Source of the DNA: Gemmobacter lutimaris
GTDB lineage: Bacteria > Pseudomonadota > Alphaproteobacteria > Rhodobacterales > Rhodobacteraceae
DNA length: 64,000 nt
Direction: 5' to 3'
NCBI RefSeq assembly: GCF_003570715.1
Contig: NZ_QXXQ01000001.1
Span: 186,001 to 250,000, forward strand
Below, piece by piece: positions 906-16,361 of the stretch (within the stretch, counting starts at the first letter, position 1; each line of letters starts with the position of its first letter). The position numbers and the translations under genes are program-made. The notes beneath the pieces were generated by a model, which worked only from the letters and a program-made list of their open reading frames with translations, did not search any database and was not told the origin of the DNA.

Positions 906-2399
906 ATGATCCGCACCGGCACAGAATACCGCGAGTCGATCCGTGACGGGCGTGAGGTTTACGTGAATGGCGAACGCGTGGCAGATGTCGGCAGCCACCC
1001 CGCCTTTCGCCCGCTGGTCGAGATGCGGGCCCGGATGCACGATATGGCGCATGACCCGGCCAGCCGCAAGGTGATGACCGTTACCCGCAACGGCGAGACG
1101 CAGGCCCTGTTGAACGCCCTGCCCTTCACACAGGCCGATTGGTGGGCCAAGCGCCGCGCCACCGATGCCGTGCTGGACATGGCAGGCGGCATCGTCACGC
1201 GGATCGGGGATGAAACCGTGGGCGAGATGTGGTCGCTGCACGATTGCGCAGACGCGCTGGCGGAACTGGACCCGCAATTCGCCCCGAACATCCGCAGGCA
1301 TGTCGAACGGGTTCTGACCTGCGACCTGTTCCACGTCTCTGGCAATGCCGGGCCTACCCCGGACGGATCGGACATGGCGCTGCATGTGGTGCGCGAAACC
1401 GATGCCGGCGTGGTGGTGCGCGGTGCCAAGTATGAAACCGCCGCAGCCTATGCCAATCAGGCTTTCATCAAGCCGACCTTGAGCGGCTGGGGTGAGGCGG
1501 CACAATCCGACAGCGCCATCGGCTTCATCTGCGACATGGCTGCCCCCGGTCTGAAATTCCTGTGCCGCGACAGCTTTGCCCGCCCCGCAAGCGCCGAGGA
1601 TTTCCCGCTATCCAGCCGGTGTGACGAGGTGGATACGCTTCTGATCTTCGATGATGTGCTGGTGCCCTGGGAAAATGTGATTTTCCACCGCCAGGCCCGC
1701 GCGGCCATGCAGGTCCGCGCGACACTGCACCGCTATTCCGCCTTCGCCTTCATGCAGCGCAGCCTGCGCATGGCCGACATGCTGATCGGCGTGGCCCTTC
1801 TGGCTGTGCGGCAGCGCGGGTTCGACCGTCAGCAGACCGTGCAGGAGAAGTTGACGCGGCTCGCGCTTTACCGCGAATCCATCCACGCCCATCTGACCGC
1901 AGCCATTGCCCTTGCCGAACGCTCGCCCGCCGGGCTGATGATGCCGAACCAGAGCCTGCTTTACGCAGGCCGGATGCATGCCACCGGGCAATTGCCCGCG
2001 ATGATGCAGCACACGCGTGAACTTTGTGGCGCCCAGATTGCGCTGATGCCGGAGACCGCGGCCTTTCAGGCGCCCGACACCGCACCCTGGCTGGAACGCT
2101 GCTATGCGGATGACGACTGGACTGCCGAGGACCGTCGCCGCCTGATGGCCTTCGCGCGCGACCTTCTGAATTCGGACTACGCGGGCCACCGTCTTACCTT
2201 CCAGCTTTTCGCCGAAGGCCCGCCCTATGCGCAGCTTGCCACCGTCTATCGCAACTTCGACTGGGAAGGGCCGATGACGCTGGTGAAAGACTGCGCCGGG
2301 CTTTCCGACCGGGCGGCAGGCGCCGACAGGCTGGTGCCGGGCGACTCGGCCGTATCGAAATGGTTTGCCACCGAAACCCCGCGCGGCCCCGCGCATTGA
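906..2399 (+). CDS. HpaB/PvcC-family FADH2-dependent monooxygenase
   Basis: A 497-residue protein of the 4-hydroxyphenylacetate 3-hydroxylase large-component family, close to the usual length of 480-520. The N-terminus (RTGTEYRESIRDGREVYVNG, then HPAF) is diagnostic of HpaB proteins. Members use reduced FAD from a separate reductase to hydroxylate aromatic or heteroaromatic rings. No HpaC-type reductase gene lies nearby, so the partner must be elsewhere. This is the first gene of the amine locus, downstream of LysR-type site A and 44 bases before the Rieske oxygenase gene. The substrate is unknown. It could be the phenolic or heteroaromatic acid made by the aldehyde dehydrogenase encoded downstream. 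Confidence 0.85.
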   Translation: MIRTGTEYRESIRDGREVYVNGERVADVGSHPAFRPLVEMRARMHDMAHDPASRKVMTVTRNGETQALLNALPFTQADWWAKRRATDAVLDMAGGIVTRIGDETVGEMWSLHDCADALAELDPQFAPNIRRHVERVLTCDLFHVSGNAGPTPDGSDMALHVVRETDAGVVVRGAKYETAAAYANQAFIKPTLSGWGEAAQSDSAIGFICDMAAPGLKFLCRDSFARPASAEDFPLSSRCDEVDTLLIFDDVLVPWENVIFHRQARAAMQVRATLHRYSAFAFMQRSLRMADMLIGVALLAVRQRGFDRQQTVQEKLTRLALYRESIHAHLTAAIALAERSPAGLMMPNQSLLYAGRMHATGQLPAMMQHTRELCGAQIALMPETAAFQAPDTAPWLERCYADDDWTAEDRRRLMAFARDLLNSDYAGHRLTFQLFAEGPPYAQLATVYRNFDWEGPMTLVKDCAGLSDRAAGADRLVPGDSAVSKWFATETPRGPAH

Positions 2400-2443
2400 A
2401 AGCCCGTGCATCGCAAGCCCATGCATCGAAAGAAGGACCGCAG

Positions 2444-3577
2444 ATGAACCACCACGCGCCGCTCAGCCCCGCCGCCGAACTTCATGCCAATGTCTCGGTC
2501 CCGTTCGAACGCGCTTTCGCCATGCCGAAATCGGTTTATACCTCGCCCGAGTTTCTGGCGCTGGAACAAAGCCATGTCTTCGCGCAGGACTGGCTTTGCG
2601 CCGGTCGCGCCGAAAGCCTGCCCGATCCGGGCGATTATCTGACCATGGAAATCGCGGGCGAGCCGGTCGTGGTGCTGCGCGACCGTGACGGCGCCATCCG
2701 CGCCATGTCGAACGTCTGCCGTCACCGTATGTCCACCCTGCTGCAAGGGCGCGGCAAGGTGCGGGCCATCACCTGCCCCTACCATGCCTGGACCTACAAC
2801 CTTGACGGCAGCTTGCGCGGCGCACCGGCGATGACGCTGAACGAAGGTTTCTGCAAAGAGGCGCTGGGCCTGCCCGCCATCCGCTGCGCGGTCTGGCAGG
2901 GCTGGATCATGGTCACGCTCAACCCCGAGGCCCCCGCCCCGGCCGAGGCATTGGCCGAAGTAACCGATCTTATCGCCCCCTTCGACATGACCGGCTACCG
3001 CGAGACCTTCCGCGAGAGTTTCCGCTGGGCGACCAACTGGAAGGTGCTGGCCGAGAATTTCATGGAAAGCTACCACCTGCCGATGTGCCACGCGGGCACC
3101 ATTGGCGGCGCGTCGAAGCTGGAGGAAATGGTCTGCCCGACCGGCGGCGCGGGGTTCAACTACCACTGGATTCTGAAGAATGATTCCGTGCCGCTGGCAC
3201 TGGCGCATCCGTCGAACACCACGCTGGAAGGCGATGACCGGCGCAAGACCTGGCTGCTGGCGATCTATCCCTCGCTGCTGATCACGCTGACGCCGGGCTA
3301 TTTCTGGTATCTCTCGCTCACCCCCGACGGGCCGGGCCATGTGCAGGTGCTGTTCGGCGGCGGCATGTCGGAAGACTGGCTGGCCGACCCGGCCGCGGAG
3401 GCGCATCTGGCCTCGGTGCGGGCGCTGCTCGACGATGTGAATGTCGAGGACAAGGGCTGCACCGAGAAGGTCTATCGCGGGCTTTGTTCCGGCCTCGCGC
3501 AGCCCGGCCCGCTCAGCCATCTGGAGCGGCCAAATTTCGAATTCGCCCAATACCTTGCCCGCCGCATCCCGGCCTGA
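2444..3577 (+). CDS. Rieske non-heme iron oxygenase, alpha subunit
   Basis: A 377-residue ring-hydroxylating-type oxygenase. The Rieske [2Fe-2S] ligands are Cys92, His94, Cys111 and His114. The mononuclear iron site is in the motif around Asn205, Glu208, His211 and His216 (ENFMESYHLPMCH). This start is preceded by AGAAGGA and fits the family; an in-frame upstream ATG at 2360 would overlap the hpaB-like gene. Family members oxidise rings or N-methyl groups (choline, carnitine and stachydrine type enzymes). No ferredoxin or reductase gene lies in the cluster. It follows the hpaB-like gene in one probable operon. The specific substrate cannot be read from the sequence. Confidence 0.88.
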   Translation: MNHHAPLSPAAELHANVSVPFERAFAMPKSVYTSPEFLALEQSHVFAQDWLCAGRAESLPDPGDYLTMEIAGEPVVVLRDRDGAIRAMSNVCRHRMSTLLQGRGKVRAITCPYHAWTYNLDGSLRGAPAMTLNEGFCKEALGLPAIRCAVWQGWIMVTLNPEAPAPAEALAEVTDLIAPFDMTGYRETFRESFRWATNWKVLAENFMESYHLPMCHAGTIGGASKLEEMVCPTGGAGFNYHWILKNDSVPLALAHPSNTTLEGDDRRKTWLLAIYPSLLITLTPGYFWYLSLTPDGPGHVQVLFGGGMSEDWLADPAAEAHLASVRALLDDVNVEDKGCTEKVYRGLCSGLAQPGPLSHLERPNFEFAQYLARRIPA

Positions 3578-3605: not shown

Positions 3606-4874
3606 ATGTCAGTCGAAAGAACCGAGGCGCTGGTGGTCGGCGCCGGACAGGCCGGCATCGCCGCCAGCGAACACCTGACCCGCGCGGGCATCCCGCATCT
3701 GGTGCTGGAAAAGGATCGCGTCGCCGAACGCTGGCGCAGTTGCCGCTGGGATTCGCTGGTGGCGAACGGCCCGGCCTGGCACGACCGCTTTCCGGGGCTG
3801 GAATTCGCGGGCGACCCCGATGCCTTTGTCGGCAAGGAAGGGGTGGCTGATTACCTTGCGGCTTACGCCCGCAAATATGACGCCCCGATCCGTTGCGGGG
3901 TCGAGGTGAAGGGCGCGACCCGACTGCCCGACCGCGCAGGTTTCCGCGTCGAAACCTCGCAAGGCGTGATCGAGACAACCTATCTGATCTCGGCCACCGG
4001 CGCGTTCCAGACCCCGGTCATTCCGCCGCTGGTGCCGGAAAGCGCAGGGATCACCCAGATCCATTCCAACAGCTACCGCAACCCCGCGCAATTGCCCGAG
4101 GGCGGCGTGCTGGTGGTGGGCGCCGGATCGTCCGGCGTGCAGATCGCGGACGAACTTCTGGCCTCGGGCCGCAAGGTCTGGCTCTCGGTCGGGCCGCATG
4201 ACCGCCCTCCCCGCGCCTATCGCGGCCGCGATTTCGTCTGGTGGCTGGGCGTGCTGAACAAATGGGACGCCGACGCGCCGGAAGGCGCCGAACATACCAC
4301 CATCGCCGTCAGCGGTGCCCATGGCGGCGCGACGGTCGATTTCCGCAAGCTCGCCGCGCGGGGCATGGTGCTGCTGGGCCGGACCGAAAGCTTCGAAGGC
4401 GGCAAGCTGCACTTCGCCGGTGACCTCGGCACCAATATCCGCCGGGGCGACGCCAATTACCTGTCGCTGCTGGACGAGGCCGATGCCTGGATCACCCGCA
4501 ACGGCCTGTCCCTGCCCGAGGAACCGCAGGCGCGCGAGATCGGGCCCGACCCCGACTGCATGACGCAGCCGATCCACACGCTTGACCTGAAGGCTGCTGG
4601 CATCACCACGATCCTCTGGGCCACCGGCTTCAGCAATGATTTTGGCTGGCTTCAGGTCGATGCGCTGGATGACAAGGGCCGCCCCCGCCACCAGCGCGGC
4701 GTGTCGTCGGAACCCGGCGTCTACTTCCTCGGCCTACCCTATCAGTCGCGGCGCGGATCCTCCTTCATCTGGGGCGTCTGGCACGATGCGAAATTCGTGG
4801 CCGACCATATCGCCAAGCAACGCAGCTACCTTGCCTATCGCGCGCCCGGCGAAACCGCCGCCGCCGCAGAATGA
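3606..4874 (+). CDS. FAD/NAD(P)-dependent FMO-like oxidoreductase
   Basis: A 422-residue flavoprotein with two Rossmann motifs: VVGAGQAGIAA near the N-terminus (FAD) and VVGAGSSGVQIA near residue 175 (NAD(P)H). The EKDRVAERWRSCRWDSL region after the FAD motif is typical of flavin monooxygenase/CzcO-like proteins. The start is preceded by AAGGAAG. It might be an independent monooxygenase, or the electron source for the adjacent Rieske oxygenase, since no classical reductase is present. It is the third gene of the operon. Its stop overlaps an upstream alternative start of the RidA-family gene. Confidence 0.82.
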   Translation: MSVERTEALVVGAGQAGIAASEHLTRAGIPHLVLEKDRVAERWRSCRWDSLVANGPAWHDRFPGLEFAGDPDAFVGKEGVADYLAAYARKYDAPIRCGVEVKGATRLPDRAGFRVETSQGVIETTYLISATGAFQTPVIPPLVPESAGITQIHSNSYRNPAQLPEGGVLVVGAGSSGVQIADELLASGRKVWLSVGPHDRPPRAYRGRDFVWWLGVLNKWDADAPEGAEHTTIAVSGAHGGATVDFRKLAARGMVLLGRTESFEGGKLHFAGDLGTNIRRGDANYLSLLDEADAWITRNGLSLPEEPQAREIGPDPDCMTQPIHTLDLKAAGITTILWATGFSNDFGWLQVDALDDKGRPRHQRGVSSEPGVYFLGLPYQSRRGSSFIWGVWHDAKFVADHIAKQRSYLAYRAPGETAAAAE

Positions 4875-4888
4875 CCCGGAGAGACCCA

Positions 4889-5305
4889 ATGGCCCATACC
4901 CGCTACCGCAAGTTCAACACCCGCGACACCTACCCCGAGCAGCGCCTCGACAATGACCTCTGTCAGGCGGTCGCCACCCGTGGCGGCACGACGCTCTGGA
5001 TGCGCGGCCAATGCCCGCAGGATCTGGACACCGCGCAGAACATCGCCTCGCATGATCCGGTGGAACAGACCCACAAGGTCATGCAGAACATCCGCCAACT
5101 GGTCGAGGAAGCCGGCGGAAAGATGGAACATGTGGTGAAACTGGTGGTCTACCTCACCGATGTGCGCCACCGCGAGGCGGTCTACCGGACCATGGGCGAA
5201 TATATCAAGGGTGTGCACCCGGTCTGCACCGGCCTGACCGTAGTGGCGCTCGCCCGCCCCGACTGGCTGGTGGAAATCGACGCCACCGCCGTCATCCCTG
5301 ATTGA
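4889..5305 (+). CDS. RidA-family protein (YjgF/YER057c/UK114)
   Basis: A 138-residue Rid-family protein that starts at an ATG preceded by CGGAGAG; an in-frame ATG at 4871 overlaps the previous stop codon. The core TTLWMRGQCPQD and the C-terminal LVEIDATAVI strand match the family. Where RidA has the Arg-Ser-Cys motif (Arg105 in E. coli), this protein reads Pro-Val-Cys at 111-113. The canonical catalytic arginine therefore appears absent. Family members deaminate enamines/imines or 2-aminomuconate, and the missing Arg suggests a different Rid subfamily or substrate. It sits between an FMO-like enzyme and a DUF1028 hydrolase, as expected for handling a nitrogenous intermediate. Confidence 0.85.
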   Translation: MAHTRYRKFNTRDTYPEQRLDNDLCQAVATRGGTTLWMRGQCPQDLDTAQNIASHDPVEQTHKVMQNIRQLVEEAGGKMEHVVKLVVYLTDVRHREAVYRTMGEYIKGVHPVCTGLTVVALARPDWLVEIDATAVIPD

Positions 5306-5460: not shown

Positions 5461-6135
5461 ATGACCTTTTCCCTTGTTGCCCGCTGCGCGAAGACCGGCC
5501 AGTTCGGCATGGTGATCTCCTCCTCCTCCCCCGCCGTGGCGGCGCGCTGTGCGCATGTGCGGGCGGGCGTGGGCGTAGTGGCGAGCCAGAATGTCACCGA
5601 TCCCACGCTGGGGCCGCTGGTGCTGGAGGCGCTGGCCTCGGGCCTTGGCGCGGAAGCGGCGCTTGCGAGGGTGACGACGGCGCGCGCGCATATTGACTAT
5701 CGGCAATTGCTGGTCGTCGATGGCAGCGGTGCAACCGCGATCCATTCCGGGCAGCAGGTGCTGGGCATCTGGGCCGAAGCGCGGGGGCAGGATTGTGCCT
5801 CGGGCGGCAATCTGCTGGCAAATGATGGCGTGCCCGCTGCCATGGTGGCGGGGTTCGAGACGGCCACCGGCCATCTGGGTGACCGCCTGATCGCCGCCCT
5901 ACGCGCCGGACTTGCGGCAGGTGGCGAGGCTGGCCCGGTGCATTCGGCGGGGCTGAAGATCGCCGACCGGCTGGACTGGCCGCTGGCCGATCTGCGCTGC
6001 GACTGGACGGAAACCTGCCCCATCGAGGCGGTAGCCGCCGCATGGGAGGTCTATAAACCGCAGATGGCCGCCTATGTGCAGCGCGCCGAAGATCCGACAC
6101 AGGCGCCTTCCTACGGAGTTCCCGGCGATGAATGA
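5461..6135 (+). CDS. DUF1028 Ntn-hydrolase-like protein
   Basis: A 224-residue protein of the DUF1028 family, recognised from the N-terminal TFSLVARCAKTGQFGMVISS and the following SPAVAARC and VASQNVTDP blocks. The family has an Ntn-hydrolase-like fold and is often encoded beside Rid proteins and amine or pyrimidine catabolic enzymes. Its reaction is not established. The start at 5461 gives the conserved N-terminus and follows GAAAGAGA. An in-frame upstream start at 5302 would translate the palindromic repeat and is rejected. The 3' end overlaps the aldehyde dehydrogenase gene by eight bases, indicating translational coupling. Confidence 0.8.
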   Translation: MTFSLVARCAKTGQFGMVISSSSPAVAARCAHVRAGVGVVASQNVTDPTLGPLVLEALASGLGAEAALARVTTARAHIDYRQLLVVDGSGATAIHSGQQVLGIWAEARGQDCASGGNLLANDGVPAAMVAGFETATGHLGDRLIAALRAGLAAGGEAGPVHSAGLKIADRLDWPLADLRCDWTETCPIEAVAAAWEVYKPQMAAYVQRAEDPTQAPSYGVPGDE

Positions 6136-7624
6136 CATCTCGCAATTCACCCGTGCCGACTGGCAGGCGCGCGCCGCCGTGCTGCGCTTCCGCAACCAGA
6201 TCTGGCTCGACGGGCGCGCCGTGCCCGCCGCCTCGGGCGCGCGGTTCGAAAGCGTCAACCCGGCCACCGGCGCCGTGCTGACCGATGTGGCGCGCGGTGG
6301 AGCCGAGGACATCGACCGCGCCGTCGCCTCGGCCCGCCGCGCCTTCGAGGATGGCCGCTGGAGCCGCAAGACCCCGGCTGAGCGCAAGGAGGTGCTGTTG
6401 CGTCTTGCTGCGCTGATCCGCGAGAATGTGCCGGAACTAGCGCTGCTGGACAGTCTGGACATGGGCAAGCTGGTGAAGGATGCCGCGACCATTGACGCCC
6501 CTGGCTCGGCGCATTTTTTCCAGTGGCATGCCGAGGCGATCGACAAGCTTTATGACGAGATCGCCCCGACCGGCGGTCGCGATCTGGCCATGGTGCGGCG
6601 GGTGCCGCTGGGGGTGGTCGGCGCGGTGGTGCCGTGGAACTTCCCGCTGGATATGGCGACGTGGAAGCTGGCGCCGGCACTGGCCACCGGCAATTCCGTC
6701 GTGCTGAAACCGGCTGAACAATCACCGCTGTCGGCGCTGCGCTTGGCCGAGCTGGCCGCCGAGGCCGGTCTGCCCGATGGCGTTCTGAACGTGGTGCCGG
6801 GCTTTGGCGAGGATGCCGGGCAGGCACTGGGTCGTCACGCGGATGTGGATTGCCTCGTCTTCACCGGCTCGACCGCCGTGGGCAAGCTGTTCCTGCGCTA
6901 TGCCGGTGAATCGAACATGAAACAGGTCTGGCTGGAAACCGGCGGCAAGAGCCCGAATCTGATCTTCCCCGACGCCGATCTGGAGGCCGCCGCCGATATG
7001 GCCGCCTTTGGCATATTCTTCAATCAGGGTGAGGTCTGTTCGGCGAACAGCCGGATGCTGGTGCATGCCTCGATTGCCGAGGAAATGATCGAACGCATGG
7101 CCGCCCGCGCCGCGCAGGCGCAGCCGGGCGACCCGCTGGACCCGGCCTCGGCCATGGGGCCGCTGGTGGACCGCAAACATGCCGATACGGTGATGGGGTT
7201 CATCGCCAGCGGCAAACAGGCCGGGCGGCTGGTCTGTGGCGGCGAGCGGATCGCGCGCAACGGCTCCGATGCCTATGTGCAGCCCACCATCTTCACCGAT
7301 CTGCGCCCCGATGCTCGCGTGGTGCGGGAGGAGATCTTTGGCCCGGTGCTGACCATCCAGACCTTCAAGACCGAGGACGAGGCGCTGACCATGGCCAATA
7401 ACTCGCCCTATGCGCTTGCCGCCTCGGTCTGGACCCGCGATCTGGGGCGGGCGCTGTCGGTCTCGGACCGGCTGAATGCGGGGACGGTTTCGGTCAACAC
7501 GGTCGATGCGCTGAGCGCGATGACCCCGTTCGGCGGCATGAAGCAATCGGGTTTCGGGCGTGACCTGTCGATCCACAGTTTCGACAAATATTCCGCGCTC
7601 AAGACGACTTGGATCAAATACTGA
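6128..7624 (+). CDS. NAD(P)+-dependent aldehyde dehydrogenase (PuuC-like)
   Basis: A 498-residue aldehyde dehydrogenase with the oxyanion Asn171 (PWNFP), Lys194 (LKPAEQ), the base Glu270 (LETGGKSP) and the nucleophile Cys304 (GEVCSANSR). The full catalytic set fits an oxidising, non-CoA-acylating enzyme. It resembles the PuuC/AldH group acting on amino- and aryl-aldehydes. It overlaps the DUF1028 gene by eight bases and follows GGAG. In this locus it is the natural next step after the amine dehydrogenase, turning the aldehyde from oxidative deamination into a carboxylate. Confidence 0.92.
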   Translation: MNDISQFTRADWQARAAVLRFRNQIWLDGRAVPAASGARFESVNPATGAVLTDVARGGAEDIDRAVASARRAFEDGRWSRKTPAERKEVLLRLAALIRENVPELALLDSLDMGKLVKDAATIDAPGSAHFFQWHAEAIDKLYDEIAPTGGRDLAMVRRVPLGVVGAVVPWNFPLDMATWKLAPALATGNSVVLKPAEQSPLSALRLAELAAEAGLPDGVLNVVPGFGEDAGQALGRHADVDCLVFTGSTAVGKLFLRYAGESNMKQVWLETGGKSPNLIFPDADLEAAADMAAFGIFFNQGEVCSANSRMLVHASIAEEMIERMAARAAQAQPGDPLDPASAMGPLVDRKHADTVMGFIASGKQAGRLVCGGERIARNGSDAYVQPTIFTDLRPDARVVREEIFGPVLTIQTFKTEDEALTMANNSPYALAASVWTRDLGRALSVSDRLNAGTVSVNTVDALSAMTPFGGMKQSGFGRDLSIHSFDKYSALKTTWIKY

Positions 7625-7668: not shown

Positions 7669-8622
7669 ATGCCCTTGCGATTCACCCTGCGGCAGTTGGA
7701 ATACCTCGTCGCCGTGGGCGAATGCGGCTCGATTGCGCTGGCGTCGGAACGGGTGAATGTGTCTTCGCCCTCAATATCCGCAGCGATTTCGCAGCTGGAG
7801 CAGGAATTCGGCCTGCCGCTGTTCGTGCGGCGCCATGCACAAGGGCTGTCACTGACGCAGGGCGGCAAGCAGTTCGTGGAACAGGCGAAAGTGGTCCTGG
7901 CACAGGCGGCGCGGCTGAACGATCTGGCCAACAGCATCACCGGCAAGGTGCGCGGGCCGCTGAACGTGGGATGTCTGCTGACCTTCGCGCAGGTGGTTCT
8001 GCCGCAGCTTCGGCGCAGCTTCGTCGATGCCTGGCCCGAGGTCGATTTCCACCAGTTCGAGCGCAACCAGTCGGAAATCTTCGACGGGTTGCGCAATGCG
8101 ACGCTGGATCTGGCGCTCAGCTATGATCTGAACATCCCCGCCGATCTGGAATTCGTGCCGCTGGCGACGCTGCCCCCTTACGCTGTCTTGCCCGATACGC
8201 ATGAGCTTGCGCACCTGGCCGCAGTCTCGCCCGCCGAACTGGCGGATTATCCGATGGTGCTGCTCGACCTGCCGCTGAGCGCCGAATATTTCCTGTCCTT
8301 CTTCACCGAAATTGGCGTGCGGCCGCAGATTGCTGAACGCACCCGCGACATGGCGGTGATGCAGAGCCTTGTCGGTCAGGGCTTTGGCTATTCCATCGCC
8401 AATATCCGGCCCTGGTCGGACAACAGCCCCGACGGGCGGCGGCTGCGCTATGTGCCGCTGACCGGGCCGGTCCGGCCGATGCGGCTGGGGCTGGTTCTGT
8501 CAGAAGGGGCCAGCGCCTCGCAGACGGTGCGCGCTTTCGTCGATCATTGCCGCGCCAATGTCAACGCGGAACGCGCCGCCGGGCTGCGGCTGCGGCTGGA
8601 CGGGCCACAGCGCGATTTCTAG
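7669..8622 (+). CDS. LysR-family transcriptional regulator of the amine locus
   Basis: A 317-residue LysR regulator. The N-terminal winged helix-turn-helix covers about residues 5-65 (FTLRQLEYLVAVGECGSI, then SSPSISAAISQLEQEFG), followed by a substrate-binding-like effector domain. It lies inside the locus on the same strand, between the aldehyde dehydrogenase and amine dehydrogenase genes. Three identical-architecture palindromes flank the transcription units it probably controls, including one just upstream of itself. The effector is probably the pathway amine or a derivative (inference). Confidence 0.9.
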   Translation: MPLRFTLRQLEYLVAVGECGSIALASERVNVSSPSISAAISQLEQEFGLPLFVRRHAQGLSLTQGGKQFVEQAKVVLAQAARLNDLANSITGKVRGPLNVGCLLTFAQVVLPQLRRSFVDAWPEVDFHQFERNQSEIFDGLRNATLDLALSYDLNIPADLEFVPLATLPPYAVLPDTHELAHLAAVSPAELADYPMVLLDLPLSAEYFLSFFTEIGVRPQIAERTRDMAVMQSLVGQGFGYSIANIRPWSDNSPDGRRLRYVPLTGPVRPMRLGLVLSEGASASQTVRAFVDHCRANVNAERAAGLRLRLDGPQRDF

Positions 8623-8810: not shown

Positions 8811-10892
8811 TTGCGCGATCCCCGCTACGACATCCTGTTTCAGCCCATGGCCATTGGCCCGCTGACCGCGAAGAACCGTTTCTATCAGGTGCCGCATTGC
8901 AATGGCGGCGGCTATCGTGACCCTTCCGCCGCCGCTGCGATGCGCGGCATCAAGGCCGAAGGCGGCTGGGGCGTGATCTTCACCGAACAGACCGAGATGC
9001 ACCAGACCTCGGAAATCACGCCCTTCATCGAGCTGCGGCTGTGGGAGGACAAGGATATTCCCGGCCTGCGCAAGATGTCGGAGGCGATGAAGACCCATGG
9101 CGCGCTGGCGGGCATCCAACTGGCCTATTCGGGCATCAACGGGCCGAACTTCTATACCAAGGAAGTGCCGCTGGCGCCGACCGCCCTGCCGATCCGCACC
9201 TTCACCAATGATCCGGTGCAGGCGCGAGCGATGGACAAAAGCGACATCCGCAACCTGCGCCGCTGGTTCGTGAACGCGGCGAAACGCTCGAAACTGGCGG
9301 GGTTTGACCTGATCTGCCTTTACGGCGCGCATGGGTTTGGCATCTTCCAGCATTTCCTCAGCCGCGCCACCAACCAGCGGTCGGACGAGTATGGCGGCAG
9401 TCTGGAAAACCGCTCGCGCTTTGCGCGCGAGGTGGTGGCGGATATGCGCGATGCCGTGGGCGATACGATGGCGCTGACGATGCGGGTCAGCCTTGACGAA
9501 AGCATCGGCGATCTGGGCTTTTCCAATGCCGAGGTGCGAGAGTTCATCGAGATGAACGCCGATCTGCCCGATCTGTGGGATCTGGCGCAGGGGACGTGGG
9601 AAGATTGCTCCGGTCCCTCGCGCTTCAAGGAGGAGGCGGCGCAAGAGGTGCTGGTGAAGGGCATCCGCGAACTTTCCTCGAAACCCGTGGTGGGCGTGGG
9701 CCGCTTCACCTCGCCCGATGTGATGGCGCGGATGATCCGGCAGGGCACGCTGGATTTCATCGGCTGCGCGCGACCGTCGATCGCCGATCCCTTCCTGCCG
9801 AAGAAGGTGGAGGAAGGCCGGATTGAGGATATCCGCGAATGTATCGGCTGCAATATCTGCATCACCGGCGACATGACGATGAGCATCAGCCGCTGCACCC
9901 AGAACCCCACCTTCATGGAAGAATGGCGCAAGGGCTGGCACCCGGAAAAGATCGCCGCACGGGGTGAAAGCGAGAATGTGCTGGTGATCGGTTCCGGCCC
10001 CGCCGGGCTGGAGGCGGCGCGGGCGCTCAGCTTGCGCGGCTATGACGTGGCGCTGGCCGAGGCCGGCGATGCGTTCGGCGGTCGTGTGGCGCGCGAACGC
10101 TTGCTGCCCGGCCTGTCGGCTTGGGGGCGGGTGATGGATTACCGGCTCTATCAGATCGGCCAACGGCCGAATGTGCAGATGTATCCGGGATCGGAACTCG
10201 GCGTGGAGGAGGTGCTGGACTTCGGTTTCCAGAACATCTGCGTGGCGACCGGCAGCCAGTGGCGCGCCGATGGCGTGGCGCGGCAGCATGTGGTGCCGAT
10301 GCCGGGCTTGGGCGCCCTGCCCAGCTTCACGCCGGACGACCTGATGGCGGGGCGGATGCCCAAGGGTCGCGTCGTGGTCTATGATGACGATCATTATTAC
10401 ATGGGCGGCGTGCTGGCCGAGCTTTGCGCCAAGGCTGGCTGCGCCGTGACGCTGGTCACCCCCGCCGCCTTCGTGTCCGACTGGACGCGCAACACGCTGG
10501 AACAGGGCGCCATTCACCGCCGTCTGGTGGAGGCCGGGGTGCAGATCGTGCTCAACACCGGCGTCACCGCATTGCGTGCCGACGGGGTGGAGGCCAACTG
10601 CGCCTATACCGATGCCCGCCGGGTGATCGAGGCCGATGCGGTGGTGCTGGTCGCCTCGCGCGCCTCGAACGATGCGCTTTACCACGGGCTGAAGGCGCGG
10701 CAGGCCGATTGGGCCGATGCCGGCATCCGCAGCGTGCAGATCATCGGCGACGCCGCCGCCCCCGGTCCGATCGCCTGGGCGACCTATGCCGGGCACCGCT
10801 ATGCCCGCGAACTCGATACCGGCGTCTGGGGCGAGGACTGGGGCGATACGCTGTCCTTCCGGCGCGAGATCACCGAACTGGCGGCGGATTGA
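8811..10892 (+). CDS. TMADH/histamine-dehydrogenase-family amine dehydrogenase
   Basis: A 693-residue iron-sulfur flavoprotein starting with TTG. Domain order is an old-yellow-enzyme TIM barrel, a 4Fe-4S cluster and FAD/NAD-like domains. Cys30 (VPHC) matches the cysteine binding FMN covalently in trimethylamine dehydrogenase. Tyr171 and His174 match its active-site pair, and Cys344, Cys347, Cys350 and Cys362 form the cluster motif. TMADH holds its substrate in a bowl of Tyr60, Trp264 and Trp355. Here the equivalents are Gln60, Trp256 and Asp354, the pattern I recall for histamine dehydrogenase, so a primary-amine substrate is likelier than trimethylamine. The reaction would be amine to aldehyde plus ammonia. 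The gene is followed after three bases by the ABC transporter operon. Confidence 0.88.
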   Translation: MRDPRYDILFQPMAIGPLTAKNRFYQVPHCNGGGYRDPSAAAAMRGIKAEGGWGVIFTEQTEMHQTSEITPFIELRLWEDKDIPGLRKMSEAMKTHGALAGIQLAYSGINGPNFYTKEVPLAPTALPIRTFTNDPVQARAMDKSDIRNLRRWFVNAAKRSKLAGFDLICLYGAHGFGIFQHFLSRATNQRSDEYGGSLENRSRFAREVVADMRDAVGDTMALTMRVSLDESIGDLGFSNAEVREFIEMNADLPDLWDLAQGTWEDCSGPSRFKEEAAQEVLVKGIRELSSKPVVGVGRFTSPDVMARMIRQGTLDFIGCARPSIADPFLPKKVEEGRIEDIRECIGCNICITGDMTMSISRCTQNPTFMEEWRKGWHPEKIAARGESENVLVIGSGPAGLEAARALSLRGYDVALAEAGDAFGGRVARERLLPGLSAWGRVMDYRLYQIGQRPNVQMYPGSELGVEEVLDFGFQNICVATGSQWRADGVARQHVVPMPGLGALPSFTPDDLMAGRMPKGRVVVYDDDHYYMGGVLAELCAKAGCAVTLVTPAAFVSDWTRNTLEQGAIHRRLVEAGVQIVLNTGVTALRADGVEANCAYTDARRVIEADAVVLVASRASNDALYHGLKARQADWADAGIRSVQIIGDAAAPGPIAWATYAGHRYARELDTGVWGEDWGDTLSFRREITELAAD

Positions 10893-10895
10893 GCC

Positions 10896-11966
10896 ATGGA
10901 ACGCAAGAAAGCCATCGAGGTTCAGAACGTCGCCAAATCCTTCGGCAGCTTTCAGGCGCTGAAGGGGGTCAGCTTCGACATCTACGATAACGAATTCTTC
11001 ACCATGCTGGGGCCGTCGGGCTGCGGCAAGACTACGCTGCTGCGGATGATTGCCGGGTTTGAAAGCCCGACCTCCGGCACCATCCGCCTGCATGGCCGCG
11101 ACATCCTTGACCAGCCGCCGCACAAGCGTCGGGTCAATACGGTGTTCCAAAGCTATGCGCTGTTCCCGCATATGACGCTGGAGGCCAATATCGCCTTCGC
11201 GCTGGAAAATCTGGGCTGGGAAAATGCGCGCATCCGCGACCGCGTGGCGCAGATGCTGGACCTCGTGCATATGACGCCGTTCGCCCGCCGCCGCCCGGCG
11301 CAGCTTTCGGGCGGGCAGCGGCAGCGCATCGCGCTGGCCCGGGCGCTGGCGTCCGAACCCGAGGTGCTGCTGCTGGACGAGCCGCTTTCCGCGCTGGACC
11401 TGAAACTCCGGCAGGCGATGCGAGACGAGTTGCGCGCCTTGCAACGCGCCACCGGCATCACCTTCATCTTCGTGACCCATGATCAGGAAGAGGCGCTGGA
11501 CATGTCCGACCGCATCTGCGTGCTGGGCGCGGGCGAGGTGCAGCAGATCGGCGCCCCGAACGAGATCTACGAAGACCCCGAAAACCGCTTTGTCGCGGAT
11601 TTCATCGGCGAGACGAATTTCCTGCCCGCCGAGGTGGTTTCGGTCGAAGGCGACCGGGCGACGGTGACAACCCCGCTGGGGCCGGTCACCACCTGGCACA
11701 AGGGCGCGGTGGCGGGGGCGCCGGCCATGCTGTCACTCCGCCCCGAAAAGATCGGGATGGAGGATCAGGCCCCGGGCGAGGCGCTGCATGGCACCATCAC
11801 CGGGCGCAATTACATGGGCGGCTATACCCATTACACCGTCACGGTGAACGGCACCGAATTGCGGGTGTCGAAACGCAATGCGGTGTCGCATGGTGCGAGC
11901 CTTGCCGTCGGTGCCCCGGTGCAACTGGCATTCCGCCCCGACAGCGCGCGGGTGCTTGCACGATGA
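10896..11966 (+). CDS. potA: polyamine-type ABC transporter ATP-binding protein (PotA-like)
   Basis: A 356-residue importer ATPase with Walker A GPSGCGKTT at 39-47, Q-loop Gln85, signature LSGGQ at 137-141, Walker B LLLDEP at 158-163 and a C-terminal TOBE domain (about 280-350). It belongs to the spermidine/putrescine (PotA) group of the MalK-like family. It starts three bases after the amine dehydrogenase stop and overlaps the next permease gene by four bases, so the dehydrogenase and its importer are one operon. The likely cargo is the amine oxidised by that dehydrogenase. Confidence 0.9.
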   Translation: MERKKAIEVQNVAKSFGSFQALKGVSFDIYDNEFFTMLGPSGCGKTTLLRMIAGFESPTSGTIRLHGRDILDQPPHKRRVNTVFQSYALFPHMTLEANIAFALENLGWENARIRDRVAQMLDLVHMTPFARRRPAQLSGGQRQRIALARALASEPEVLLLDEPLSALDLKLRQAMRDELRALQRATGITFIFVTHDQEEALDMSDRICVLGAGEVQQIGAPNEIYEDPENRFVADFIGETNFLPAEVVSVEGDRATVTTPLGPVTTWHKGAVAGAPAMLSLRPEKIGMEDQAPGEALHGTITGRNYMGGYTHYTVTVNGTELRVSKRNAVSHGASLAVGAPVQLAFRPDSARVLAR

Positions 11967-12841
11967 GCTGGCGCGATTTCCGCATCTGGGGCCTTGCCCC
12001 CGCATGGGTCATCATGGCGCTGACGCTGGTCTTGCCCATCGGCATCGTGGTGCTGGTCAGCCTTTCCATCCGCGGCGCCTATGGCGGGTTTGACTGGGGC
12101 CTGTCCTTCGACAGCTATGCGAAGATCCTGTTCGAGGAGGATTGGGACGGCAACCTTGCCTTCACCCCGCAATACCTTGCCATCATCGGGCGCACGCTGT
12201 GGCTTGCCGGGCTGACGACGCTGATCTGCGCGGTGCTTGCCCTGCCCGCCGCCTATGTCATCGCGCAGGCCCCGGCGCGCTGGAAGGCGGTGCTGGTCTA
12301 TCTGGTCACGCTGCCCTTCTGGGTGTCGATGATCGTGCGGGTCTATGCCTGGATCATCATTCTGGGCAATGACGGGGTGATCGAGAAAACCCTGCGCGGG
12401 CTTGGCCTTGTCACCGATATGGACAGCCTTCTGTTCACCAATGGCGCCATGCTCACGGGGTTGGTCTACAGCTACATCCCGCTGATGATCCTGCCGGTTT
12501 TCGCCAGTATCGAGAAGCTGGACCCCGCCTTGATCGAGGCGAGCCATGATCTTTACGGCTCGCGCTGGGTCACCGCGCGGCGGGTGATCCTGCCCCTGAC
12601 CCTGCCGGGGCTGATGGCCGGCGCGGTGCTGGTCTTCGTGCCCTGCCTTGGCGCGGTGCTGGAGCCGATCCTTCTGGGTGGCGGCAAGACCATGATGATG
12701 GGCAATCTGATCCAGACCCAGTTCGGCGGCGGGCGAAACTGGCCCTTCGGCGCGGCGATTGCCGTCACACTCATGGTGCTGGTGATGGTGTTCCTGATGC
12801 TGAACGCGCTGCGCGCGCGGCGGGAGGTGGGCCATGCGTGA
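11963..12841 (+). CDS. potB: polyamine-type ABC transporter permease (PotB-like)
   Basis: A 292-residue integral membrane permease with about six segments. The cytoplasmic EAA loop lies near residues 190-205 (IEASHDLYGSRWVTARRVILP). The N-terminus LAPAWVIMALTLVLPIGIVVLVS is typical of PotB/PotH. It overlaps the ATPase gene by four bases and the next permease gene by eight. Confidence 0.88.
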   Translation: MSWRDFRIWGLAPAWVIMALTLVLPIGIVVLVSLSIRGAYGGFDWGLSFDSYAKILFEEDWDGNLAFTPQYLAIIGRTLWLAGLTTLICAVLALPAAYVIAQAPARWKAVLVYLVTLPFWVSMIVRVYAWIIILGNDGVIEKTLRGLGLVTDMDSLLFTNGAMLTGLVYSYIPLMILPVFASIEKLDPALIEASHDLYGSRWVTARRVILPLTLPGLMAGAVLVFVPCLGAVLEPILLGGGKTMMMGNLIQTQFGGGRNWPFGAAIAVTLMVLVMVFLMLNALRARREVGHA

Positions 12842-13625
12842 CGTGCGGCGCTATCCCGGCGCGCGGATCTTCACCGCGCTGTTCTTCGTCTGGCTTTATC
12901 TGCCGATCCTTGTGGTCATCGCCTACAGCTTCAACGAAAACCGCCTCGCCTCGGTCTGGACCGGGTTTTCCTGGCGCTGGTATGAAAGCGCGCTGCAAAA
13001 CCGGGCACTGCTGGATGCGGTGAAAATCTCGCTGACCGTGGCCAGCATCGCCACGGCCATTGCGACCACGGTCGCCCTGATGGCGGCGCTGGTGCTGGTG
13101 CGGGGGCGCGACGTGAAACTGCGGCGCCTGTCGGAGACCGTGGTGAACCTGCCCCTGCTGCTGCCGGAAATCGTGCTGGCGGTGGCGGTGCTGATCCTGT
13201 TCTCGCAGATCGGGTTGCAGAACGGCCTTCTGAAACTGGTGATCGCGCATTCGGCCTTCTGCATCCCCTTTGCCTTCCTGCCGATCCGTGCCCGCCTGCA
13301 AGGGATGGAGGCCGATTTCGAGGAAGCCGCACAAGATCTTTACGCCTCGCCCTGGGTCACGTTCCGCCGTGTCACCCTGCCCTTGATCGCGCCGGGGGTC
13401 TTTGCCGGGGCGATGCTGGCCTTCGTGATCTCGATGGATGATTTCATCACCTCGAACCTGCTCAACTCCGGCGGCTCGACCACGCTGCCGGTCTATATCT
13501 TCGGCCTGATCAAGCAGGGCACCACGCCCGAACTGAACGCGATTTCCACGCTGATCGTGCTGGGCTCGCTGATCCTTGCCACCACCGCGCTTGTTCTGAC
13601 CTTCCGCAACCCCGACCGGGCATGA
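12834..13625 (+). CDS. potC: polyamine-type ABC transporter permease (PotC-like)
   Basis: A 263-residue permease with six predicted membrane segments and an EAA loop (EEAAQDLYASPWVTFRRVTLP). The conserved Leu-Pro-Glu-Ile motif in its middle is usual for PotC/PotI. It is the second permease of the heterodimeric channel and overlaps potB by eight bases. The solute-binding protein gene starts 29 bases downstream. Confidence 0.88.
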   Translation: MRDVRRYPGARIFTALFFVWLYLPILVVIAYSFNENRLASVWTGFSWRWYESALQNRALLDAVKISLTVASIATAIATTVALMAALVLVRGRDVKLRRLSETVVNLPLLLPEIVLAVAVLILFSQIGLQNGLLKLVIAHSAFCIPFAFLPIRARLQGMEADFEEAAQDLYASPWVTFRRVTLPLIAPGVFAGAMLAFVISMDDFITSNLLNSGGSTTLPVYIFGLIKQGTTPELNAISTLIVLGSLILATTALVLTFRNPDRA

Positions 13626-13654
13626 AGACCCGACCATCCTGACAGGAGAGACAT

Positions 13655-14683
13655 ATGACCAGAACCACCCGCCTTCTTGGCCTGACCGCCGCGCTTGCCA
13701 CCCTGCCGCTGGCCGCCATGGCCGAGGGAGAGCTGCATATCTACGCATGGTCCGACAGCATCGCCCCCGATCTGGTGGCGAAGTTCGAGGCCGAGACCGG
13801 CATCAAGGTCACCATGGACGGCTTCAACGCCAACGAAGACCTGCTGACCAAGTTGCAGGCCGGGGCCTCGGGCTATGATCTGGTGACGCCCTCGCAGCAT
13901 TTCGTGCGGATCATGATCGACCAAGGACTGCTCGAGGACATCGACGCCCATGATCTTGCCGCCTATCAGGCGGTGGACGAAAAGTGGCGCGGCCAGTGGT
14001 GGGACGAGACCAACGAATATTCCATCCCGCTGGCCTATGGCACCGCTGGCTTCACCGTGAACCGCGATCAATACAAGAGGCCGGTGGATAGCTGGTCGGT
14101 GTTCTTCGAGCCGACGGAAGACCTGAAGGGCAAGATCGCGCAGCTTTCCTACCCTGACGAGATCGTGGGCGCCGCGCAGCTTTACCTTGGCGTGCCCTTC
14201 TGTTCCGAGGACTCGGCCGAAATGAAGCGCGTCTATGACCTGCTGGCCGCACAGAAACCCTTTGTCGCCGCCTATACCAGCGACAATATCGAAAACCGCA
14301 TCGGCGGCGGTGAAGTGGCGATGCACTTCTGGTGGGACGGCAACTCGATGAAGACCCGCCTGAACGACAAGGCCCCCATCGAATATGCCATGCCGAAAGA
14401 GGGGCTGGTCGGCTGGCTTGACAGTTTCGTGGTGCCCAAGGGGGCTGCGAATGTCGAAAATGCCAAGAAGTTCATCGACTTCATGTCCACGGTGGAGAAT
14501 GCGACGGCGCAGTATAACTACTACGGCCATTCCGCCCCGGTGAAGATCGACACCGCCACCGCGACCTATACGCCGGAAAACGCGCCGGAACTGTTCCCGA
14601 CGGTGAAGGTGGAATTTTCACGCGCCTGCTCGCCCGCCGCGCAGGATCTGGTGACGAAGGTCTGGACCCAGCTTCTGCAATGA
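13655..14683 (+). CDS. potD: periplasmic amine/polyamine-binding protein (PotD-like)
   Basis: A 342-residue extracellular solute-binding protein with a Sec signal peptide (hydrophobic stretch 7-18, cleavage after AAMA near 23). The mature part begins ELHIYAWSDSIAPDLVAKFE, typical of PotD/PotF proteins. Trp and acidic residues in the pocket region (WWDETNEYS, FWWDGNS) suit a cationic amine ligand, but the specific ligand is unknown. It is the last gene of the importer operon before a strong hairpin with a U-tract. Confidence 0.88.
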   Translation: MTRTTRLLGLTAALATLPLAAMAEGELHIYAWSDSIAPDLVAKFEAETGIKVTMDGFNANEDLLTKLQAGASGYDLVTPSQHFVRIMIDQGLLEDIDAHDLAAYQAVDEKWRGQWWDETNEYSIPLAYGTAGFTVNRDQYKRPVDSWSVFFEPTEDLKGKIAQLSYPDEIVGAAQLYLGVPFCSEDSAEMKRVYDLLAAQKPFVAAYTSDNIENRIGGGEVAMHFWWDGNSMKTRLNDKAPIEYAMPKEGLVGWLDSFVVPKGAANVENAKKFIDFMSTVENATAQYNYYGHSAPVKIDTATATYTPENAPELFPTVKVEFSRACSPAAQDLVTKVWTQLLQ

Positions 14684-14738: not shown

Positions 14739-16361
14739 ATGGACCTCGTGATCCGCAATGCCCGCAGTTTTCCCGATGGTGCCGCCGTGGCACTGGCGGT
14801 GCAGGACGGCCTGATCGCCTGGATCGGGCCGGACGGCGAGGCGCCCGCCACTACGCAGATCATCGACGCGGGCGGCGCCACGCTGCTGCCGGCCTTCACC
14901 GAAAGCCATGTGCACCTGTTTCTGGGCGGCACCGCGCTGGGGCAATTGAACCTCGCCGCCATCGGTGACACCGCCAGCTTCCGGTCAGCCTTGCGCCACT
15001 TCGCGGACAGCCTGTCGCCGGGCGCGTTCCTTTGCGGCTATGCCGCGAATTACGAAATGCTCGGCCCCGGCACCCGGCCCGACCGGCATGCACTGGATGC
15101 GGCGGTGGCCGATCGGCCAGTGTTCATCACCTCCACCGACTATCACGCGGCTTGGGCCAATACGGCGGCGCTGCAACTGGCAGGTATCCTGCACGGTGCC
15201 GAAACCCCGCCGGGAGCGGAGGTGGTGATGGGGCCAGATGGCCTTGCCACCGGCGAATTGCGCGAAGGCGCGGCGATGGAGCTGATCCGCCGTCTGACGC
15301 CGACCGGCGGGCGCGACAGCACCGCCATGATCGGGCAAGAACCGCCCGGCACACCCGATGCCGCGATGCGCGCCCGCGACAAGGCCACCATCCTGCGCGC
15401 CTGCCATGAACTCGCCCGCCACGGCATCACCAACGCGGTGAACATGGATGGCAACCTTTATCAGGCCGGGTTGTTCACAGAACTGGCAGAGGAATTGCCG
15501 ATCCGGGTCAAGCTGCCGATGAACCTGACCGAGGATCAGGACGATGCGCGCGTGGCCGCCCTGATCACGCAGGCGCAGGCAGCGCCGGTCGGGCGGCTGG
15601 AATTCGGCATGATCAAGATGTTCATGGATGGCGTTTATGACACATGGACTGCGCATGTCGTCGGCGGCTACCCGGACGACCCCGCCAATGACGGGCCGCG
15701 ACTGATTTCCGCCCCCGCCTTCGCGCGGCTGTGCACGATGGCCGATGCGGCGGGATTGCAGATCGCGGTGCATGCCGTGGGTGATGGCGCGGTGCGCGCG
15801 GTGCTGGACGGCTACGAGGCCGCCCGCACCGCCAATGGCCCACGCGACAGCCGCCACCGCATCGAACATATCGACACCATCACCGAGGCGGACCTGCCGC
15901 GCCTGCGCACCCTTGGCGTCATGGCCTCGATGCAGCCGGTGCATCCACCGGGCAGCGCGGGCCTGCCGCTGGAGCCGACGATTTCCATCATGGGCCGCGC
16001 CCGTTGGCCCACCGCCTTCCCTTGGGCGCGGATCGCGTCGCAGGGCACGCCGCTGGCCTTCGGCACCGACTGGCCGGTCTCGCCGCTCGACCCGCTCTAT
16101 TGCCTGCATTGCGCGCTGTCCCGCCGCCCCTGGGCCGCGGATATGCCCGACCAGCGGCTTGATCTCGCGGCTGCCCTTGCCGCCTATAGCGCTGGCGGCG
16201 CCTATGGCATGTTCGCCGAAGCCCGGCGCGGTGCGCTGCGCCCCGGCATGCAGGCGGATGTGATCCTCGTCGCGGGCGATCTGACGGCGCTGGCGGACTG
16301 TGCCGATGCCGCCCGTGTGACGCTGACCCTGCGCGAGGGCGAAATCATCTGGCAGGCGTGA
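14739..16361 (+). CDS. YtcJ-type metal-dependent amidohydrolase
   Basis: A 540-residue amidohydrolase of the YtcJ/N-substituted formamide deformylase group. Metal-site motifs are His-Val-His (ESHVHLFL, about residue 54), HAVGDGA near 345, HRIEHID near 373 and the terminal GTDWPVS near 445. Members hydrolyse amide or formamide bonds of small N-containing compounds. It follows the transporter operon after a terminator and converges on the nitrilase-family gene with a 17-base 3' overlap. In this context it could open a ring amide or remove a formyl or formimino group from a pathway intermediate (inference). Confidence 0.85.
   Translation: MDLVIRNARSFPDGAAVALAVQDGLIAWIGPDGEAPATTQIIDAGGATLLPAFTESHVHLFLGGTALGQLNLAAIGDTASFRSALRHFADSLSPGAFLCGYAANYEMLGPGTRPDRHALDAAVADRPVFITSTDYHAAWANTAALQLAGILHGAETPPGAEVVMGPDGLATGELREGAAMELIRRLTPTGGRDSTAMIGQEPPGTPDAAMRARDKATILRACHELARHGITNAVNMDGNLYQAGLFTELAEELPIRVKLPMNLTEDQDDARVAALITQAQAAPVGRLEFGMIKMFMDGVYDTWTAHVVGGYPDDPANDGPRLISAPAFARLCTMADAAGLQIAVHAVGDGAVRAVLDGYEAARTANGPRDSRHRIEHIDTITEADLPRLRTLGVMASMQPVHPPGSAGLPLEPTISIMGRARWPTAFPWARIASQGTPLAFGTDWPVSPLDPLYCLHCALSRRPWAADMPDQRLDLAAALAAYSAGGAYGMFAEARRGALRPGMQADVILVAGDLTALADCADAARVTLTLREGEIIWQA

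Follow-up and report, generated by a model that had tools for sequence, protein, structure and literature searches.

Histamine dehydrogenases are members of the trimethylamine dehydrogenase (TMADH) family that carry covalent FMN and a 4Fe-4S cluster. For the enzyme from Rhizobium sp. 4-9 (6DE6, UniProt Q60I59), the residues assigned to the active site and tunnel include Gln60, Ile69, Phe72, Glu74, Asn110, Phe131, Tyr171, His174, Phe176, Thr262, Trp263, Asp354 and Met355, with Trp263 as the tryptophan of the substrate bowl (PMC10180351). Saturation mutagenesis gave no active variants at Tyr171, Phe176, Trp263, Asp265 or Asp354 and lowered the activity at Gln60 and Ile69; Asp265, which is intolerant of substitution, is treated there as the catalytic acid (PMC10180351). 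Relative to histamine, the Rhizobium enzyme oxidizes agmatine at a rate of about 10% and 1,3-diaminopropane at about 13%, and the Nocardioides enzyme is given as oxidizing putrescine at 30% (PMC10180351). The same paper also cites Asp358 of the Nocardioides enzyme as a proposed histamine-binding residue, on which its pairing with TMADH Trp355 rests, and cites mutants of the Nocardioides enzyme made towards Phe, Asp and Cys at the sites equivalent to 176, 265 and 266, in which redox potential and substrate inhibition were altered (PMC10180351).

The catabolism of histamine has been described as the hin pathway of Pseudomonas. For P. putida, HinC is assigned as histamine aminotransferase, HinD as aldehyde dehydrogenase, HinF as FAD monooxygenase, HinL as enamine deaminase, and HinH and HinG as amidases (PMC6467879). 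HinK of P. aeruginosa is a LysR regulator of histamine catabolism that responds to imidazole-4-acetate (PMC8231116).

Here we analyzed a 64,000-nucleotide stretch of the Gemmobacter lutimaris genome (contig NZ_QXXQ01000001.1, positions 186,001 to 250,000; hereafter the window) and found a gene that very probably encodes a Rhizobium-type histamine dehydrogenase starting a histamine catabolic pathway.

Results

The gene lies at 8811..10892 on the plus strand and encodes 693 residues from a TTG start, which is supported by close orthologues whose start codon (TTG, GTG or ATG) falls at the equivalent residue. Among solved structures, its best relatives are 6DE6 (1283 bits, 81% identity) and then the Nocardioides simplex enzyme 3K30 (814 bits, 55%); 6-hydroxypseudooxynicotine amine oxidase HisD (6L6J, 48%) and Methylophilus W3A1 TMADH (2TMD/1DJN, 42%) rank lower. 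The nearest named orthologue, that of Gemmobacter caeni, is 99% identical. A tree inferred from 51 homologues by maximum likelihood groups the window protein with 6DE6 and 3K30 in a single clade of 28 rows (support 100/100) that excludes TMADH (1djn) and 6L6J. The predicted model matched 6DE6 with a Z-score of 42.4, 3K30 with 41.4, 6L6J with 40.2 and TMADH (2TMD) with 38.9, where gaps of less than 1 count as ties. While the overall fold thus agrees, the pLDDT of the AlphaFold model is below 50 at residues 30-32, 110-113 and 353-357, which are the pocket loops; because of this, the model cannot test pocket geometry and was dropped for that use.

The sequence-only reading of this gene had proposed that the cofactor sites of TMADH are kept while its aromatic bowl is exchanged for the histamine dehydrogenase pattern, and our alignments agree with most of this. 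Cys30 (codon 8898..8900, plus strand), the covalent FMN site in TMADH and the histamine dehydrogenases, is retained, as are the catalytic pair Tyr171 and His174 (9321..9332, plus strand) and the 4Fe-4S cysteines 344, 347, 350 and 362 (9840..9896, plus strand), the last being invariant in alignments A1-A3. Gln60 (8988..8990, plus strand), corresponding to Gln65 of the Nocardioides enzyme, stands in place of TMADH Tyr60, again as proposed. The bowl tryptophan, by contrast, had been misplaced: in the alignment Trp256, the invariant tryptophan of the LWD motif, pairs with TMADH Trp254, which rules it out as a bowl residue, and the counterpart of TMADH Trp264 is Trp263 (9597..9599, plus strand). 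The proposed replacement of Trp355 by Asp354 (9870..9872, plus strand; Asp358 in Nocardioides) stands in part. An aspartate is indeed present at 354, but by sequence alone it lies opposite Glu356, with a gap opposite Trp355; since the TMADH loop has one extra residue, this one-residue gap ambiguity leaves the pairing unfixed by sequence. The bowl of the window protein is Gln60/Trp263/Asp354, where TMADH has Tyr60/Trp264/Trp355.

Around the bowl, 13 of 13 pocket residues checked (Q60, I69, F72, E74, N110, F131, Y171, H174, F176, T262, W263, D354 and M355) are identical to those of the Rhizobium enzyme. The likeness to 6DE6 extends over the whole length and includes the cofactor-binding residues and the trio Phe176/Asp265/Cys266, and none of the 19% of residues that differ lies at the pocket positions checked. 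With 3K30, the window protein shares the Gln/Trp/Asp bowl, Ile69, Phe72, Glu74, Asn110 and the Tyr/His pair, but Phe176-Asp265-Cys266 takes the place of Tyr181-Gly269-Asp270. With TMADH it shares the fold, the covalent FMN cysteine, the 4Fe-4S cysteines and the Tyr/His pair, whereas Tyr60, Trp355 and the position of Asp267 differ. HisD has the TMADH fold but carries Ala at 30, Glu at 60 and Val at 354, and acts on another substrate.

Gln60, Trp263 and Asp354 are retained in every full-length homologue of at least 56% identity. Two homologues outside the clade (L196_10859 and L140_1501, 54% identity) share this triplet and differ at residues 69, 72, 105 and 110, so the triplet is ruled out as a sole diagnostic. 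Therefore, the histamine dehydrogenase assignment is carried by the tree together with the wider signature, the Gln/Trp/Asp bowl with Ile69, Phe72, Glu74 and Asn110, which is present in the window protein. The same evidence bears on the reading implied by generic annotation, a trimethylamine or dimethylamine dehydrogenase. The TMADH fold and cofactors are shared (42% identity, Z 38.9), and Gln60 is presumably also found in dimethylamine dehydrogenase; yet in the tree the window protein groups with the histamine dehydrogenases and not with TMADH, and its bowl and second-shell residues also match those of histamine dehydrogenases, which makes this reading almost certainly wrong. The genome also has a second TMADH-family protein (L205; contig C45, 12031-14013, minus strand), 45% identical to the window protein, with a different pocket and with Ala at position 30, where covalent FMN would not be expected.

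A third catalytic residue of TMADH, Asp267, had been passed over in the earlier reading. An aspartate three residues after the bowl tryptophan is found in TMADH, 3K30, 6L6J and most distant homologues. In the window protein, this position is Cys266 (9606..9608, plus strand), and the acidic residue is Asp265 beside it. The cysteine lies in a W-x-x-C-S motif (9597-9611) shared by the window protein, 6DE6 and the rest of the Rhizobium-type subclade, and it is invariant (99/99 sequences examined). Residue 265 just before it is mostly Asp in these 99 sequences and elsewhere Glu, His or Ala. The difference between the Rhizobium and Nocardioides enzymes at these sites was already known; what we add is that the cysteine is invariant throughout the subclade and that residue 265 varies. 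Cys266 is thus a residue of interest for the mechanism of Rhizobium-type enzymes. In Xanthobacter (L055 and L061), two histamine dehydrogenase copies lie no more than about 7 kb apart; one is of the Rhizobium type and the other, 56-57% identical to the window protein and nearer the Nocardioides type, has Asp at the Cys266 position.

The dehydrogenase gene is surrounded by genes on the same strand, several of which resemble those of the hin pathway. A FAD monooxygenase of the Pyr_redox_3/FMO-like type (3606..4874) is HinF-like and may be an imidazoleacetate monooxygenase. It is followed by a RidA-family protein (4889..5305; TIGR00004 match below cut-off), HinL-like and thus a putative enamine deaminase, which has the same position in other hin-type clusters. 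Next come a DUF1028 protein (5461..6135, Pfam DUF1028), HinH-like by gene order, and an aldehyde dehydrogenase (6074..7624, Pfam Aldedh), HinD-like and predicted to convert imidazole acetaldehyde to imidazole acetate; the true start of the latter is probably downstream of 6135. The FAD, DUF1028 and aldehyde dehydrogenase proteins are 67, 54 and 55% identical, respectively, to their counterparts in one hin-type cluster of another genome (L190). A LysR regulator (7669..8622) has its best PDB sequence match in 6m5f/3fzv (206 bits; next distinct protein, 95 bits), and 6m5f, titled HinK, also ranks first in the fold search (Z 27.6); we therefore call it HinK-like. Only 3 bases past the dehydrogenase begins a polyamine-type ABC transporter (10896..14683, NCBIfam PotA/PotB/PotC/PotD matches), made up of an ATPase (10896-11966), two permeases (11963-12841 and 12834-13625) and a binding protein (13655-14683). 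At the edges are three variable partners assigned by Pfam or NCBIfam: an HpaB-type flavin monooxygenase (906-2399) and a Rieske oxygenase nearest glycine betaine monooxygenase GbcA (2360-3577) upstream, and an amidohydrolase (Amidohydro_3, 14739..16361) downstream. Two pairs of ETF genes are present in the genome.

Compared with the hin pathway of P. putida U and P. aeruginosa, the window has the FAD monooxygenase, RidA, DUF1028, aldehyde dehydrogenase and HinK-like regulator, with the F-L-H order. The Pseudomonas pathway begins with the aminotransferase HinC; no class-III aminotransferase was found in the window cluster, where the histamine dehydrogenase takes its place. An ABC transporter stands in for the HinA permease of Pseudomonas, and a HinG-type M20 amidase is absent from the window. 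The nearest M20 homologue elsewhere in the genome (G000:C4:75997, 49% identity) is no more than a candidate HinG, as nothing among its neighbours points to histamine genes. In other genomes, the FAD, RidA and DUF1028 genes occur in the same order beside an M20 amidase, and some such clusters add a class-III aminotransferase, an aldehyde dehydrogenase, a permease and a HinK-type regulator. Whether or not a hin-type cluster includes the dehydrogenase, its DUF1028 gene consistently follows RidA, and by this order the DUF1028 product is a candidate HinH amidase.

The gene set recurs beside the dehydrogenase across Rhodobacterales and Rhizobiales. We compared 66 orthologous loci of more than 20 kb. 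Within about 10 kb of the dehydrogenase, the FAD gene occurs in 60 of them, RidA in 59, DUF1028 in 57 and LysR in 61, and the first three occur together in 56 of the 66. An M20 amidase lies near the dehydrogenase in 54/80 loci, and a HinC-like aminotransferase (at least 35% identity) in 1/80. Among 397 Pseudomonadota genomes, a HinF-like gene occurs in all 11 with a dehydrogenase orthologue of at least 76% identity, compared with 40/397 overall (hypergeometric 2.7e-12, a value that ignores kinship, 6 of the 11 genomes being of one genus), and in 1 of the 9 whose best dehydrogenase homologue is 50-55% identical.

These counts also bear on two other readings of the cluster. A polyamine substrate is possible because the transporter resembles spermidine/putrescine systems: with this PotABCD-like transporter starting directly after it, the enzyme could be a diamine or agmatine/polyamine dehydrogenase for which histamine is only a side substrate, in line with the minor activities of the Rhizobium enzyme on agmatine and 1,3-diaminopropane and with that of the Nocardioides enzyme on putrescine (PMC10180351). 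The most constant neighbours, however, are the imidazole-ring genes resembling HinF, HinL and HinH (56/66) and the HinK-like regulator, while the PotA-like gene is present in only 41/66, and polyamine catabolism does not need an imidazoleacetate monooxygenase; we consider this reading unlikely. The second accepts a histamine dehydrogenase by descent but has the cluster mainly handle N-methyl or N-acyl histamines through the Rieske, HpaB and amidohydrolase proteins. The Rieske protein is indeed nearest to GbcA, a demethylating type, and the window does contain the amidohydrolase together with the accessory oxygenases. But these genes are missing from most orthologous loci (present: Rieske 11/66, HpaB 10/66, amidohydrolase 19/66) and for that reason cannot be the core function, so this second alternative is very unlikely. 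The window has both oxygenases beside its hin-like genes, where most related loci lack at least one of them, and the pair may extend the pathway to methylated imidazole compounds.

Histamine dehydrogenase accordingly remains the best-supported reading when homology, phylogeny, pocket and context are considered together. The earlier proposal of this activity is strengthened by the 81% identity to a solved enzyme, the fully supported clade and the hin-like neighbourhood with its HinK-like regulator. The dehydrogenase itself is ordinary for its family.

Discussion

We suggest a plausible route for histamine in this organism, a hin-type pathway leading to aspartate whose opening reaction is most likely catalyzed by the dehydrogenase; what we infer here is the substrate, the flow of products, the inducer, the acceptor of the electrons and what each lower-pathway gene does. 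Histamine would be imported by the polyamine-type ABC transporter, and its primary amine would be oxidized by the dehydrogenase at the covalent 6-S-cysteinyl FMN. From the flavin, electrons would travel through the 4Fe-4S cluster and on to an acceptor that is probably ETF. Hydrolysis of the resulting imine would give imidazole acetaldehyde, which the aldehyde dehydrogenase could convert to imidazole-4-acetate. The ring could then be taken to aspartate through the HinF-like FAD monooxygenase, the HinL-like RidA protein, the HinH-like DUF1028 protein and a HinG-like M20 amidase, the gene for this last step being in most related clusters and absent from the window. The HinK-like LysR regulator may respond to imidazole acetate. 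We found no description of a hin cluster started by a dehydrogenase in the open literature, to which our search was confined, key papers being available by subscription; we do not claim its novelty firmly.

If the proposed route is right, an enzyme known from tests for food histamine gains a likely physiological setting, a recurring and sometimes plasmid-borne catabolic cluster of Rhodobacterales and Rhizobiales, and a role is suggested for the DUF1028 and RidA proteins encoded nearby. The earlier warning that a generic annotation would mislead was justified: the dehydrogenase stays below the cut-off of every NCBIfam model (its highest score is 347 bits, where the cut-off is 793), and the records of plasmid-borne orthologues (77-81% identity) bear the names "FAD-dependent oxidoreductase" or "NAD(P)-binding protein," the latter being the name of the Leisingera plasmid protein. 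There are thus concrete grounds for renaming such records.

Leisingera, Shinella, Rhizobium and Paracoccus are among the genera with plasmid-borne orthologues at 77-81% identity (e.g., NC_023146.1 and NZ_OZ000532.1). On the Leisingera plasmid, the FAD, RidA, DUF1028, aldehyde dehydrogenase, LysR, dehydrogenase, dodecin, M20 and transporter genes follow in a row; on the Shinella plasmid, where the dehydrogenase relatives have 80-81% identity, the same parts are reordered, without the FAD gene and dodecin in that stretch. Because the Leisingera plasmid is typed as conjugative, we suggest that the module can move. A broader picture, in which alphaproteobacterial histamine catabolism is a mobile module with a Cys-bearing flavin dehydrogenase replacing the aminotransferase and with Rieske and HpaB enzymes extending it to methylated histamine metabolites, is speculative and, taken as a whole, rather unlikely. 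More distant homologues are also plasmid-borne: one of 53% identity occurs on Sinorhizobium meliloti plasmids in several strains (H25-H30).
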